From contig CP033784.1 of the NCBI GenBank assembly GCA_003955985.1, positions 1,116,001 through 1,180,000 on the forward strand: a stretch of 64,000 nucleotides of DNA, in the 5' to 3' direction. This DNA comes from Corynebacterium jeikeium (GTDB lineage Bacteria > Actinomycetota > Actinomycetes > Mycobacteriales > Mycobacteriaceae). Position numbers and translations under genes: made by a program. Shown piece after piece: positions 30,440 to 35,498 of the stretch; within the stretch, counting starts at the first letter, position 1, and each line of letters starts with the position of its first letter. The notes under the pieces are model-generated. The model worked only from the letters and a program-made list of their open reading frames with translations, ran no database searches and was not told the DNA's origin.

Positions 30440-30482
30440 GTTCTACCCCGCTGTGAGCCATCCGCTTGCAGTGGGGTAGAAC
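30440..30482. promoter_or_regulatory. Inverted repeat before the chelatase gene
   Basis: GTTCTACCCCGCTG (30440-30453) pairs with CAGTGGGGTAGAAC (30469-30482), 14 pairs including one G-T. No T-run follows. TAGAAC inside the right arm could be the -10 of a leaderless transcript starting near ATG 30490, which would make the repeat an operator; as an RNA it could instead be the 3' end structure of mqo. Confidence 0.5.
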
Positions 30483-30489
30483 TGTGCTT

Positions 30490-31641
30490 ATGGAAAAAAT
30501 CACGTCAGCGACCACTGCACAAACAGAGCCCACTTTTCCTTTTACTGCGATCGTCGGGCAGCAGCGACTACAGCTTGCGTTGATTCTGACCGCGCTATCC
30601 CCGGAGATTGGTGGTGTCGTCATCCGCGGTGAGAAGGGCACAGCCAAGACCACTACGGTTCGCGCGTTGGCGCCATTTCTCAGCGGATCGTTGGTAAACC
30701 TGCCACTCGGCGCTACGGAAGATCGAGTCGTAGGCTCCATCGATGTGGAGACCGTCCTGACTACCGGACACGCACAGTTCAATCCGGGACTACTCAGCGC
30801 GGCTGACGGTGGCATTCTCTATGTCGACGAGATTAACCTGCTGCCGGATCATCTCGTTGACTCCGTGCTCGATGCCGCAGCCACCGGTCGCGTGGTTGTT
30901 GAACGCGATGGTATCTCGCACTCCGCAACCTCCAGGTTCGTGTTGGTCGGCACGATGAACCCGGAAGAGGGCGAATTGCGTCCCCAGCTTCTCGACCGCT
31001 TTGGTCTCGCCATCGACGTCACCGCATCCAAGGATCCGGCTGTCCGCGCGGAAATCGTCGCCCGCCGCCTCGACTTTGACGCCGACCCGGAGAGCTTTGT
31101 CACGCGGTTCGCCGCCGACGACGATGCGCTACACGCTCGCATCGATCGCGCACGCGCACTGCTTGACGACGTCGAATTAACTCCCAGCATTCTCGGTCAA
31201 ATTGCCACTGTGTGCGCTGCTTTTGATGTGGATGGGATGCGTGCCGACATCGTCATTGCACGTACCGCCCGCGCTCACGCTGCCTGGCGAGTAGCCGGGG
31301 ACGAGTCGGCGCAGCCGGCACCCGACAATCAAATTGAGATCACTGCGGAAGACATTAAGGTAGCTGCGGAAATGGCACTGCCGCACCGTCGTCGCCGTGA
31401 CCCCTTTGATGAACCAGGACTGGACCAGGAGCAGCTCGACGATGCTCTGCAGGATGCAGAGGAGCAGTTCCGGGATGACCAGAATCAGCCAGAGTCGAGT
31501 CCGGAGTCGGATCCAGAGCCCGATGCTGAGCAGGTCTCCCAGTTCGACTCCAACTCCGAACCTCAGGAGCCACAACAGTCGAATTCCTCGGGATCGAAGG
31601 GAGGTCGCGCCGCTGAAGGCGCCCCCTTTCGCCGTTCGTAA
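30490..31641 (+). CDS. Chelatase small (ChlI-like) AAA+ subunit, zero-frame product
   Basis: 383 residues from ATG 30490. AAA+ module of Mg/Co chelatases: Walker [10 protein letters not shown] (about 47-55), Walker [34 protein letters not shown], and the arginine finger region. A long acidic Pro/Gln/Glu-rich linker (about residues 310-370) follows, and the frame ends 13 nt after a CCC-CCT-TTC shift site at 31622-31630. By itself this is a complete small subunit. A +1 shift joins it to the VWA domain that follows, as in the one-piece actinobacterial ChlI-ChlD proteins. Location in a cob operon suggests it serves cobalt insertion with a CobN partner encoded elsewhere. Confidence 0.88.
31622..31630 (+). 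other. Predicted +1 ribosomal frameshift site in the chelatase gene
   Basis: The zero frame reads GCC CCC TTT CGC. Sliding +1 at the proline codon gives CCT TTC GCC, restoring the conserved [16 protein letters not shown] lies 18 nt and GAAGG 4 nt upstream of the CCC codon and could act as stimulators. The alternative is a one-base insertion in the run of five C, either a real mutation or a sequencing error. Confidence 0.6.
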
Positions 31642-32425
31642 AATCAGCGTCGACGGTGTCGGCCAAGGGGATTCCGGTCGGCGTTCCAAGGCCATTGGCC
31701 CGCGGGGCAGCACCATTGGTGCCGAGCGGGGAGGCCATGGTCTTCACGTGCCGGCGACAGTGCTGGCGGCGGCCAATCGTGGCGTCCGCATGGGCGACTC
31801 CATGATTCCCCTGGAACCGGCGGACGTTCACGGCGCTATCCGACAGGGAACGGAGTCCAATCTGGTCGTCTTTGTCGTGGACACCTCGGGTTCCATGGCA
31901 GCACGCGACCGTCTGGCAGCCGTCACCGGCGCAGTCACATCGCTGCTGCGTGATGCCTACCAAAGCCGCGATAAAGTCGCTGTCATTACTTTCCGCGGAA
32001 ATAACGCCGAATTAGTTTTACCGCCGACGAAGTCTATCGACACCGCAGTACGTCGCCTCGCAGATGTCCGCACTGGTGGCCGAACTCCATTGGCCGAAGG
32101 ACTGCTGAAGGCACACGAAGTGGTAGTTCGGGAAGCCCATAGGGAGCCCACACGGCGCGCAATCATGGTCTTGCTCTCCGACGGCCGAGCAACGGGTAAA
32201 AATGGCCTGCAGCAGGCGAGGGCTGTGGCCGCAAAGATCCGTCGTCAAGCGTTGGCGGCGACGGTGGTTATCGACTGTGAGCGCTCTCGCGTGCGGCTGG
32301 GGCTGGCACAGGAACTCAGCGTGGAATTGGGTGCGACCTGCATAAATCTCTCCGAACTCAATGCCGAAGCCGTGGCGGGCGTGGTCCATGCCTATCATCG
32401 AGACCATGGCACAAGGAAAGCTTGA
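31628..32425 (+). CDS. VWA (ChlD-like) part of the chelatase, reached by +1 frameshift
   Basis: About 265 residues in the +1 frame. With residues 1-379 of the upstream frame it gives a protein of about 644 residues with AAA+, acidic linker and von Willebrand A domain, the usual layout of actinobacterial chelatase proteins. The metal-ion-dependent adhesion site DTSGSM is intact, with later [10 protein letters not shown]. No start codon lies near the shift; the first plausible internal start (GTG 31748, GGGGAGG 13 nt before) would lose part of the conserved sequence, so frameshifting is preferred. The stop overlaps the cobO start by 20 nt. Confidence 0.8.
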
Positions 32426-33026
32426 CCCCAAATCAATTCCCAACGATGGACTGACCACCAGGCAGCGTCGCATGATTCCGATTACTGCGGTGCATACGGG
32501 CCCAGGTAAGGGCAAGTCCACCGCGGCATTCGGTATGGCGATGCGCGCGTGGAATCAGGGGATGAATATCGGTGTCTTCCAGTTTGTGAAGTCGGCAAAG
32601 TGGAAGGTTGGCGAGGAAGCTGTCATGCGCCGATTGGGCGAGCTTCACGACGACACGGGGGAAGGCGGCCCGGTCGAATGGCACAAGATGGGCGAAGGTT
32701 GGTCTTGGTCGCGTAAGCAGGGCACTGAGGAGGACCATGCGGCAGCTGCTGCCGAGGGATGGCAGGAGATTAAACGGCGCCTGGAAAATGAGGTGCACGA
32801 CTTCTACGTCCTCGACGAGTTCACCTACCCAATCAAGTGGGGTTGGATTGATGTCGACGATGTGGTGGAGACATTGAGGAACCGTCCCGGCCGCCAGCAT
32901 GTGGTGATGACTGGCCGCGATGCGGATCCGAAGCTCGTGGAGGTCGCGGATCTGGTGACGGAGATGACCAAGATTAAGCACCCGATGGATGTCGGACGTA
33001 AGGGACAAAAGGGCATCGAGTGGTAG
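32406..33026 (+). CDS. cobO: Cob(I)yrinic acid a,c-diamide adenosyltransferase
   Basis: 206 residues. It adds the adenosyl group from ATP to the corrinoid cobalt. P-loop TGPGKGKSTAAFG, and VLDEFTYPIKWGW with the Mg-binding acid are the CobO/BtuR hallmarks. The start at ATG 32406 overlaps the chelatase stop, and the end overlaps the cobB start by 7 nt, so the genes are translationally coupled. The frame is open to 32361, but upstream residues are the chelatase read in another frame. Confidence 0.95.
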   Translation: MAQGKLDPKSIPNDGLTTRQRRMIPITAVHTGPGKGKSTAAFGMAMRAWNQGMNIGVFQFVKSAKWKVGEEAVMRRLGELHDDTGEGGPVEWHKMGEGWSWSRKQGTEEDHAAAAAEGWQEIKRRLENEVHDFYVLDEFTYPIKWGWIDVDDVVETLRNRPGRQHVVMTGRDADPKLVEVADLVTEMTKIKHPMDVGRKGQKGIEW

Positions 33027-34396
33027 CGCCTGGAATTGTCATCGCGGCGACAGCTTCAGGCACGGGAAAGACGACAATCTCCACGGGCCTGATGCGTGCA
33101 CTGTCGCGCCGTCACGCGGTGGCACCTTTCAAAGTCGGACCCGACTATATTGATCCTGGCTATCACGGGGTAGCCGCTGGTCGTCCCGGCCGCAATCTGG
33201 ATTCCTTTATGTGCGCGCCTGAGATGATTGGGCCGCTCTACGCACATGGAGCTGCCGACAGCGATATTGCGGTGGTCGAAGGGGTTATGGGGCTTTTCGA
33301 CGGCCGCATTGGTGACGACCCGCTATCGGTGGAGGGCTCGACGGCTGAGATTGCCTCACTGTTGGGACTTCCGGTGGTGTTGGTGATTGATGCCCGGCAT
33401 ATGTCGCAGTCGGCTGCGGCTGTTGTCCACGGTTTCTCCACGCTTCGCACTGACGTCCGTGTCAGTGGCGTGATTATTAATCAGGTGGGCAGCCCGCGGC
33501 ATGCGGACATCATTACCCGTTCTGTGGAGGCCATGGGGGTCGAGGTGCTCGGCGCTATTCCGCGAGTGACTGATATCGAGGTGCCCAGCAGGCATTTGGG
33601 GCTGGTCACTGCAGTCGAGCAGGGGGAGCAGCTAGAAGCGGTCATTGAATCGATGGCCAACTTGGTGGAAACCTACATCGACATCGACCGGATTATCCAG
33701 CTTGCCCGGCAGCCCTATCCAGCTGAACCATGGGACCCTGCACAGTTCGTTGCACCGCTGGCTACTCAGCGCCGCGTGCGTGTAGCGGTCGCGGCGGGTC
33801 CTGCGTTCTCGTTTACCTATGCAGAGCACCGTGAGCTATTGCAGGCCGCTGGAGCCGAGGTCGTGGATTTCGACCCATTGGTTGACGAACTGCCGGAAGC
33901 CGAAGGCTACATCGTGCCCGGTGGATTCCCAGAAGAGCATGCCGACGCGCTATCTATTCGTGATGACATTCGCCGCGATCTACGTCAGGCTGCCGACGAT
34001 GGTGCGCTGATCCACGGCGAATGCGCGGGGCTGCTCTGGCTGCTTGAAGATCTCGGTGGGCGCCGTATGTGTGGCATCATCCCGGGGCGAGCGCACATGG
34101 CACGGTTGAAGCTGGGGTACCGGGAGGCTGTGGCGCTGACTGATTCTGTGCTGTGCCCGGTAGGAACGCGCGTGCGCGGTCACGAGTTCCACAAGACAGC
34201 CCTAACCGATGACACCGCAAGTGTCGCTGCTGCGGCCGGGTGGCAACCAGCCTGGGGTTGGCGTGGATATCAAGGCGAAACAGTTCGCGACGGCTTCGTT
34301 TCCGAGTCTGGGCGGATTCATGCCGGTTACCTGCATGTTCATCCGGCGGGTGCGCCGGGGAACGTCAGTCGCTTTGTCGCTTCGTGCGCCGGGTAA
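33020..34396 (+). CDS. cobB: Cobyrinic acid a,c-diamide synthase
   Basis: 458 residues. ATP- and glutamine-dependent amidation of the a and c side chains of (hydrogeno)byrinic acid. The N-terminal P-loop-like ATASGTGKTTIS, then KVGPDYIDPGYH, precede a class I glutamine amidotransferase domain with the nucleophile Cys in HGECAGLLWL and PGGFPEEHAD. GTG 33020 lies in the last codons of cobO. cobA follows after 10 nt. Part of the chelatase-cobO-cobB-cobA operon. Confidence 0.95.
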   Translation: MVAPGIVIAATASGTGKTTISTGLMRALSRRHAVAPFKVGPDYIDPGYHGVAAGRPGRNLDSFMCAPEMIGPLYAHGAADSDIAVVEGVMGLFDGRIGDDPLSVEGSTAEIASLLGLPVVLVIDARHMSQSAAAVVHGFSTLRTDVRVSGVIINQVGSPRHADIITRSVEAMGVEVLGAIPRVTDIEVPSRHLGLVTAVEQGEQLEAVIESMANLVETYIDIDRIIQLARQPYPAEPWDPAQFVAPLATQRRVRVAVAAGPAFSFTYAEHRELLQAAGAEVVDFDPLVDELPEAEGYIVPGGFPEEHADALSIRDDIRRDLRQAADDGALIHGECAGLLWLLEDLGGRRMCGIIPGRAHMARLKLGYREAVALTDSVLCPVGTRVRGHEFHKTALTDDTASVAAAAGWQPAWGWRGYQGETVRDGFVSESGRIHAGYLHVHPAGAPGNVSRFVASCAG

Positions 34397-34406
34397 AGTG
34401 TTAGCT

Positions 34407-35498
34407 ATGAGTTTGCTTCTCAAAGACTACGGTGTGTTGGTGATTGGCGGTTCCACGGCTGCAGAGCGCGTGATTCCTCGGCTGTTGGACTCTGGCGCTG
34501 ATGTCACTGTGTGTGAAGGTGGGGAAGTAACAACTGCGATTGAGGCCTGGGCTGCAGACGGCCGTATTACTTTGACCCGCACCGGCTTTACCGAGGCGAT
34601 GAGCTGGGGCAAGGCTCTCATGGTCTGCTGTGACGAGGCGTTGCTGCGTGAGGTGACTCTAGAGGGACACCGCCGAGGTATTCTCGTCGACGATGAAACC
34701 GGGGCTTCCAGCCCGCTTACTCCTGTGGCGCTGACCGGCCGTCGCGCGTCGCGCGCTGGGGACCTCGCTGGTCAGGTCGCACTCGTAGGCGGTGGCCCGG
34801 GCGACCCCGGTCTGATTACCGTTGAGGGGCGTCGCTTGCTCCGGCTTGCCGACGTTGTCGTTGCAGACCACCTCGGTCCACTGTCGCTGCTCGGTGACTT
34901 GGAGCCGGATGTCGAGATTATTGATGCCGGCAAGCTTCCTTACGGCCGCGCCATGGCTCAGGAGCGCATCAATGAACTGCTAGTTCATCGTGCCCGTGAG
35001 GGCTACTTTGTGGTCCGGCTCAAGGGTGGCGATCCGTACATCTTCGGCCGCGGTTTTGAAGAGCTTCAGGAGCTGCAGAAGGCTGGGGTACCGGTTCGCG
35101 TTGTGCCGGGTATTACTTCAGCACTGGCGGTACCGGGGACGATTGGCATCCCAGTTACTATGCGTGGCGTCAACCATGAATTCACTGTTGTGTCCGGTCA
35201 CGTCCCACCGGGGCACAGGAAATCGCTGGTCAATTGGGATGCGCTGGGCCGGATGCACGGCACTATTGCCATCATTATGGGAGTTAAGAACGGGCCAAAG
35301 ATTGCCGAGGCTCTGATGAAGGCCGGCCGCAGCCCGAAGACTCCGGCTGCGGTCATCCAGGACGGCACGCTGCCGAATCAGAGGTCGCTACGCTGCACAC
35401 TCGGCGAGCTTGGCGAGAAAATGGTCGAAGAGGCAATCAAGCCGCCCGCGGTTATCGTCATCGGTGAAGTCGCCGGTCTGGATGAGGGCGATGAGTAA
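34407..35498 (+). CDS. cobA: Uroporphyrinogen-III C-methyltransferase with shortened siroheme-synthase N-domain
   Basis: 363 residues. Residues 1-115 are a Rossmann fold with GVLVIGGSTAAERVIPRLL as in precorrin-2 dehydrogenase. The methyltransferase begins at about 122 with VALVGGGPGDPGL and continues with GGDPYIFGRGFEE and VPGITSALAVPG. The central dimerisation/ferrochelatase part of CysG (normally 80-100 residues) is missing between them, so the N-domain alone may not act as a full siroheme synthase. It makes precorrin-2, the branch point to cobalamin and siroheme. Start ATG 34407 was chosen; the open frame upstream overlaps cobB. Confidence 0.92.
   Translation: MSLLLKDYGVLVIGGSTAAERVIPRLLDSGADVTVCEGGEVTTAIEAWAADGRITLTRTGFTEAMSWGKALMVCCDEALLREVTLEGHRRGILVDDETGASSPLTPVALTGRRASRAGDLAGQVALVGGGPGDPGLITVEGRRLLRLADVVVADHLGPLSLLGDLEPDVEIIDAGKLPYGRAMAQERINELLVHRAREGYFVVRLKGGDPYIFGRGFEELQELQKAGVPVRVVPGITSALAVPGTIGIPVTMRGVNHEFTVVSGHVPPGHRKSLVNWDALGRMHGTIAIIMGVKNGPKIAEALMKAGRSPKTPAAVIQDGTLPNQRSLRCTLGELGEKMVEEAIKPPAVIVIGEVAGLDEGDE

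Follow-up and report, generated by a model that had tools for sequence, protein, structure and literature searches.

Can a chelatase gene whose two halves lie in different reading frames still yield one protein, and what would make the ribosome change frame? We addressed this question for an AAA+/VWA gene (chlID) in a 64,000-nucleotide (nt) window of Corynebacterium jeikeium (GenBank assembly GCA_003955985.1, contig CP033784.1, positions 1,116,001 to 1,180,000 of the forward strand), the window being the whole stretch of DNA analysed. An original prediction, made from the sequence of the window alone, had proposed that a ChlI-like and a ChlD-like product arise from this gene by a programmed +1 shift. 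This proposal is strongly supported because the arrangement is conserved genus-wide and the junction is constrained at the codon level. Judged by sequence comparison, the gene, probably a cobaltochelatase gene, is very probably expressed by programmed +1 ribosomal frameshifting.

Structure of the chlID gene

The zero-frame open reading frame (ORF) extends on the forward strand from the ATG at 30490 to the TAA at 31639-31641 (30490..31641) and is read as a product of 383 amino acids (aa), which comprises a ChlI-like AAA+ ATPase (Pfam AAA_5 and AAA_lid_2) and an acidic linker. Its best structural counterparts are the ChlI chains of PDB entries 8osf (E 2e-80), 6l8d (E 8e-77), and 1g8p (E 3e-75). 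The open stretch of the VWA frame begins at 31397 or earlier and runs to the stop at 32423-32425; its ChlD-like part (31631..32425, forward strand; Pfam VWA_2) resembles the 60 kDa Mg-chelatase subunit BchD (PDB 2x31, E 9e-17). Joining the two frames by +1 at the junction gives 380 + 264 = 644 residues; the sequence thus agrees with the predicted lengths of 383 and 644 residues, and the Walker A/B motifs and the DTSGSM metal site are present. The gene thereby has the features of ChlI/ChlD-type chelatases, a ChlI-similar AAA+ part with Walker A/B motifs and a BchD-similar VWA part with a metal site.

Conservation of the out-of-frame junction in Corynebacterium

We screened 242 Corynebacterium genomes and obtained VWA matches (E <= 0.001), among them weak and paralogous ones, in 79; we examined 73 loci with both halves (30 from the first screen and 43 from further retrievals). 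Loci L004, L036, and L037 and locus L095 (a duplicate of G011) were left out as duplicates, G014 was excluded as paralogous (locus L091), and neither G167, a fragment at a contig edge, nor G168 (L094), which had an AAA match only, was counted. The VWA frame is +1 to the AAA frame, with a zero-frame TTTC at the junction, in 71 of the 73 loci; the junction counts below refer to these 71 and leave out L066 and L080. Offsets are counted from the first T of TTT (0). All 71 loci have GC at -18/-17 and GG at -9/-8, at fixed offsets from TTTC. Walker motifs were found in 71/71 and the metal site in 70/71 loci by loose patterns, and the zero-frame stop follows TTT after 3-18 codons (four in the window). 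The out-of-frame AAA/VWA junction is thus conserved and under selection, as in published frameshifted chlD genes. Three close relatives (L007, L008, L009), with VWA parts 97-98% identical, share the same CCCCCTTTC junction.

The two loci outside these counts differ in kind. L080 keeps the zero-frame TTTC ahead of an assembly gap (a run of N); its base at -6 is T, and its stem differs. L066 (genome G124) is a single open frame of 606 residues and the sole in-frame ortholog among the genus loci examined. It is without the extra T (CCC TTC) and without the hairpin described below (-1.7 kcal/mol at the equivalent place), and its operon has a separate chlI-like AAA gene (L090, 10649-11668, 63% identical). 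Mapping the frameshifted state onto a quick tree (85 rows, with 13 in-frame outgroup rows as the root) requires two changes, which we read as a probable single gain in the ancestor of the genus and a single loss. L066 falls within the genus beside 13 frameshifted rows (support 100), though on a long branch.

The loci named from outside the genus were L038 and eight in-frame loci (L039-L046). In L038 (Nocardia acididurans) the halves lie in different frames and the AAA frame stops 227 nt ahead of the VWA match, which a mutation, an assembly error, or a further case of frameshifting could explain. Among the matches listed, five further genomes outside Corynebacterium (G461, G454, G595, G620, G583) have the VWA part in a short open frame of 289-371 aa; two of these frames begin near a contig end, and the five are possibly other frameshifted cases. 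The paralog L091 (G014) is a distinct in-frame AAA-VWA gene of 663 aa that adjoins a separate AAA gene, with a cobN match nearby.

Proposed shift site and putative stimulators

The proposed shift site is TTT-C at 31627..31630 (forward strand), preceded by a codon (31624..31626) that is CCC in the window and variable across the genus. Among the 140 conserved codon columns of the AAA ORF, uniformity is highest at TTT (71/71), GGC at -9 (68/71), and GCC at -18 (64/71); the latter two lie upstream of the shift, where the sequence codes in one frame only. Within TTT-C, constraint beyond that of the protein acts only on the first T and on the C. A VWA-frame stop lies at most 40 nt upstream of TTT in 30/71 loci.

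A Shine-Dalgarno (SD)-like sequence, AAGGGAGGT, occupies 31597..31605 of the forward strand (offsets -30 to -22). Across the 71 loci the anti-SD energy has its minimum at -30, with a mean of -9.1 kcal/mol and values of at most -6 in 69/71, against a median of -1.8 when the means at all offsets from -150 to -1 are taken. The best energy within 25 offsets is <= -6 in 70/71 frameshifted loci versus 11/26 in-frame relatives. The expected 16S 3′ end, GGATCACCTCCTTTCT, is present at four places in the genome.

Between the SD-like sequence and the shift site lies a hairpin, GCGCC-GCTGAA-GGCGC (31607..31622, forward strand), which has 4-7 possible pairs across loci. The pairs -16/-9, -17/-8, -18/-7, -19/-6, and -20/-5 form in 70, 71, 71, 68, and 49 of the 71 loci, respectively. 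Unguided consensus folds of -60..+45 and -45..+30 gave this hairpin as the sole structure, and none of 300 column shuffles of -33..+3 matched its energy. Folded singly over -22..-4, every frameshifted locus reached -6.1 kcal/mol or lower (mean -9.6), compared with 0 to -7.6 at the equivalent place in the 26 in-frame relatives (mean -3.5 with L066, n = 27). No consensus structure was found downstream in +6..+96, and Rfam gave no match in the window at gathering scores. The combined SD-hairpin-TTTC pattern, with at most two mismatches, matched once per strand of the window, both times at the chlID junction, and 31500-31800 had no plasmid copy at megablast sensitivity.

We propose that ribosomes staying in frame would end four codons past TTT and yield the ChlI-like subunit of 383 residues, while a fraction would slip by +1, with tRNA-Phe on UUU re-pairing with UUC, to yield the ChlD-like subunit of 644 residues. 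The SD-like sequence and the hairpin would act as stimulators; the 3′ arm of the hairpin ends 4-5 bases before UUU, by the E site. The folded hairpin would leave 5-7 unpaired bases between the SD-like sequence and UUU, a spacing before the P codon somewhat like that of prfB. The efficiency of the shift and the use of both products by CobN are points that we infer.

Alternative explanations

The original prediction had named a mutation or sequencing error in the run of five C as the alternative. Such a homopolymer is indeed present at the junction, but 71 of 73 loci share the +1 relation and TTTC, so a sequencing error there is excluded, and the CAG, ACC, and CGA variants have the same arrangement without a C5 run. 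With the Walker motifs and the metal site kept as described, the chance that the gene is a frameshift mutant, a pseudogene, or an artefact is negligible. Internal initiation, or coupling to the AAA stop, could instead produce a separate VWA protein started from the SD-like sequence. The strength of that sequence in 69/71 loci fits this explanation, as does a VWA-frame CTG 7 nt past it in the window; VWA-frame ATG, GTG, or TTG codons also occur at +13 (10 loci), +31 (9), +16 (8), and a few other offsets, all ahead of the metal site at about +256. Only 4/71 loci have such a codon between -22 and +6, however, and 34/71 have none between -25 and +60. Near-cognate or other starts are found in 40/71 loci, at scattered positions, and initiation of this kind leaves TTT-C, the fixed offsets, and the conserved +1 phase unexplained; we therefore consider it very unlikely.

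Within programmed frameshifting, the slip had originally been placed on the proline codon, at CCC-CCT-TTC. The junction and the peptide hold, and slips at UUU and at CCC yield an identical peptide, but conservation does not reside in the C run. TTT is preceded by CCC in 56, CAG in 8, ACC in 5, and CGA in 2 loci; relatives have the predicted out-of-frame arrangement, with the proline codon replaced in 15/71. This codon requires at least eight changes on the tree, with TTT-C retained throughout. Neither CAG nor CGA can re-pair at +1, and a move from UUU to UUC gives tRNA-Phe, with its GAA anticodon, a Watson-Crick third pair, so UUU is where we place the slip. A slip of tRNA-Phe is likely on these grounds. 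For +1 shifts at the prfB site, CCC and UUU are both cited as coming next in slipperiness (PMC10274946), which fits either codon. A slip of tRNA-Pro from CCC to CCU is further favoured by the prevalence of CCC, and is possible but doubtful. Another variant is that the P-site tRNA does not re-pair and UUC is read at +1 in the A site. As for the hairpin, it might have no role, its conservation being a by-product of the Ala (-18) and Gly (-9) conserved in the zero frame, and no core-stem pair is changed on both sides. Against this, the third positions -16, -7, and -19 keep pairing in 70, 71, and 68 of 71 loci, the use of GGC and GCC exceeds that in each of the remaining 16 Gly and 19 Ala columns that are conserved, and an added inner pair is seen as both G-C (20) and C-G (6). 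This inner pair (-15/-10), always G-C or C-G, occurs in 20/22 loci without the outer pair versus 20/49 others (Fisher p 7e-5, kinship ignored). We regard a hairpin without function as unlikely.

Several observations nonetheless weigh against programmed +1 frameshifting with these stimulators, some here and some in the gene content discussed below. Part of the uniformity of TTT is imposed by the protein, since the second and third T also belong to the conserved +1-frame Phe codon TTC. TTT is followed in the zero frame by CGN in 65/71 loci and by a stop in none, so no slow A site is evident. VWA-frame start codons at +13 to +31 exist in about 30/71 loci. With the hairpin unfolded, 21 nt separate the SD-like sequence from UUU, a linear spacing longer than the few nucleotides upstream of the P codon seen at prfB-type sites, and an SD-like stretch is also nearby in 11/26 in-frame relatives. 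Four of the 26 in-frame relatives reach hairpin energies in the frameshifted range (-7.0 to -7.6 kcal/mol), and a kinship-aware sign test of outer-pair loss against the inner pair, with about four events, was not significant. In PMC6321510, moreover, the hairpin effect required the absence of RF2, was much weaker for a destabilised hairpin, and was obtained with a 12-bp stem far longer than the one here.

Comparison with known frameshifting systems

The published work on frameshifted chlD genes (fs-chlD) to which the original prediction referred does exist (Antonov and co-workers 2013, 2020, 2022). As in Corynebacterium, the AAA+ and VWA parts of fs-chlD are in different frames, and a single gene is proposed to supply both the small and the medium subunit where the genome has cobN but no separate small-subunit gene (PMC9227772). 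The two differ in that the measured fs-chlD cluster shifts by -1 at poly-A sites and covers six genera without Corynebacterium (PMC3711429, PMC5009743); its 23 genes included efficiencies of 63, 40, and 10% in E. coli (PMC3711429). An A-rich -1 site, often with downstream RNA structure, is usual there, not stated to be obligatory, and absent here; the Corynebacterium signal is instead +1 at UUU-C with an upstream SD-like sequence and hairpin. Rarer +1 cases of fs-chlD exist, Actinobacteria included, in PMC9227772, the main text of which does not name Corynebacterium. The literature searched, which did not extend to the 2020 fs-chlD paper and supplementary files, contained no Corynebacterium fs-chlD and no matching signal. 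The signal looks like a new form of the already published frameshifted chlD genes.

The prfB (RF2) site shares the +1 direction, P-site re-pairing, and an upstream SD-like sequence with chlID; it differs in that the SD-like sequence of chlID lies 21 nt upstream with a hairpin in between. In PMC6321510, an internal SD and an E-site-adjacent hairpin each stimulated +1 shifting in vitro: an upstream hairpin was effective in E. coli 70S lysate, and one of 12 bp, adjacent to the E site, stimulated shifting at the RF2 site about 60% as strongly as an internal SD. Upstream hairpins also stimulate +1 shifting in yeast (PMC3639245). Location by the E site and direction of shift are as in chlID, yet the hairpins tested there had longer or more stable stems and were placed in reporter constructs, whereas chlID has a short stem conserved in a natural bacterial gene alongside an SD-like sequence. 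No natural bacterial gene with both an internal SD and an E-site-adjacent hairpin was found described in the literature searched. If our reading is true, Corynebacterium has a +1 signal that is compact, spans the genus, and consists of parts that can be separated, and +1 shifting without a stop codon becomes testable in simple reporters. With both a gain and a loss on one tree, the reason for the chelatase's two products could be investigated. Gene-calling programs may report such a gene as separate pieces.

Possible reasons for two products

The lack of a separate small-subunit gene had been suggested as the reason for frameshifting. The window genome agrees: the search for cobN and chlI gave one cobN match and no second close chlI, the sole other AAA match being 31% identical (E 4e-5), which is the gene content of fs-chlD genomes. 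The separate operon AAA gene of the in-frame L066 also speaks for the two-subunit idea. The rule that an in-frame gene goes with a separate chlI holds for L066 and fails for the family outside the genus.

Beyond the window genome several observations speak against the suggestion in its simple form. Among the matches listed, same-family genomes outside Corynebacterium have one AAA match each (69/69, E <= 1e-30) in open frames of at least 621 residues, and all 26 loci checked there are in frame. All 30 of these 69 relatives that were tested have cobN, and their other AAA matches are at most 34% identical, split pieces of the same gene aside; one fused protein therefore seems enough in in-frame relatives. 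Conversely, 11 frameshifted genomes hold a second ChlI-like gene (51-54% identical) within a second chelatase set that also comprises a second VWA gene and a second CobN-like gene, and 13 genomes retain the signal without cobN and without CbiC. A fourteenth cobN-less genome, G189, is only 53% complete, and CbiC was present in 9/9 other genomes tested. To explain the frameshift by a missing small-subunit gene alone is too simple. Given the in-frame relatives, the second-ChlI genomes, and the cobN-less genomes, the shift may rather set the subunit ratio. The CobN-less clade retains Walker motifs and metal site, and its AAA/VWA pair may have another role or be a relic.

The second chelatase set was found in G008, G074, G087, G102, G112, G113, G125, G136, G139, G193, and G202. 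The genomes without cobN and CbiC are G023, G034, G038, G042, G046, G057, G065, G066, G083, G162, G163, G205, and G214. At the cobN-less locus L093, the frameshifted chlID adjoins a cobA-like methyltransferase gene.

Genome and neighbouring genes

The genome has a size of 2.53 Mb, and the VWA part of its chlID is 98% identical to that of C. amycolatum SK46 and also to that of a record labelled C. vitaeruminis 1285_CVIT. Three ORFs follow chlID on the forward strand. A family search assigned the first (32361..33026) to cobO/btuR, a corrinoid adenosyltransferase, with the true start probably downstream of 32361, and the second (33020..34396) as cobB-like, with CbiA and GATase_3 domains. The third (34209..35498), named by inspection only, is putatively cobA/cysG-like (uroporphyrinogen-III methyltransferase part). 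Upstream of chlID, an inverted repeat recognised by eye at 30440-30482 has 14-base arms with one G-T pair and a 3′ end 7 bases from the chlID ATG; since no T run follows the repeat, it is perhaps more likely a regulatory hairpin than a plain terminator.
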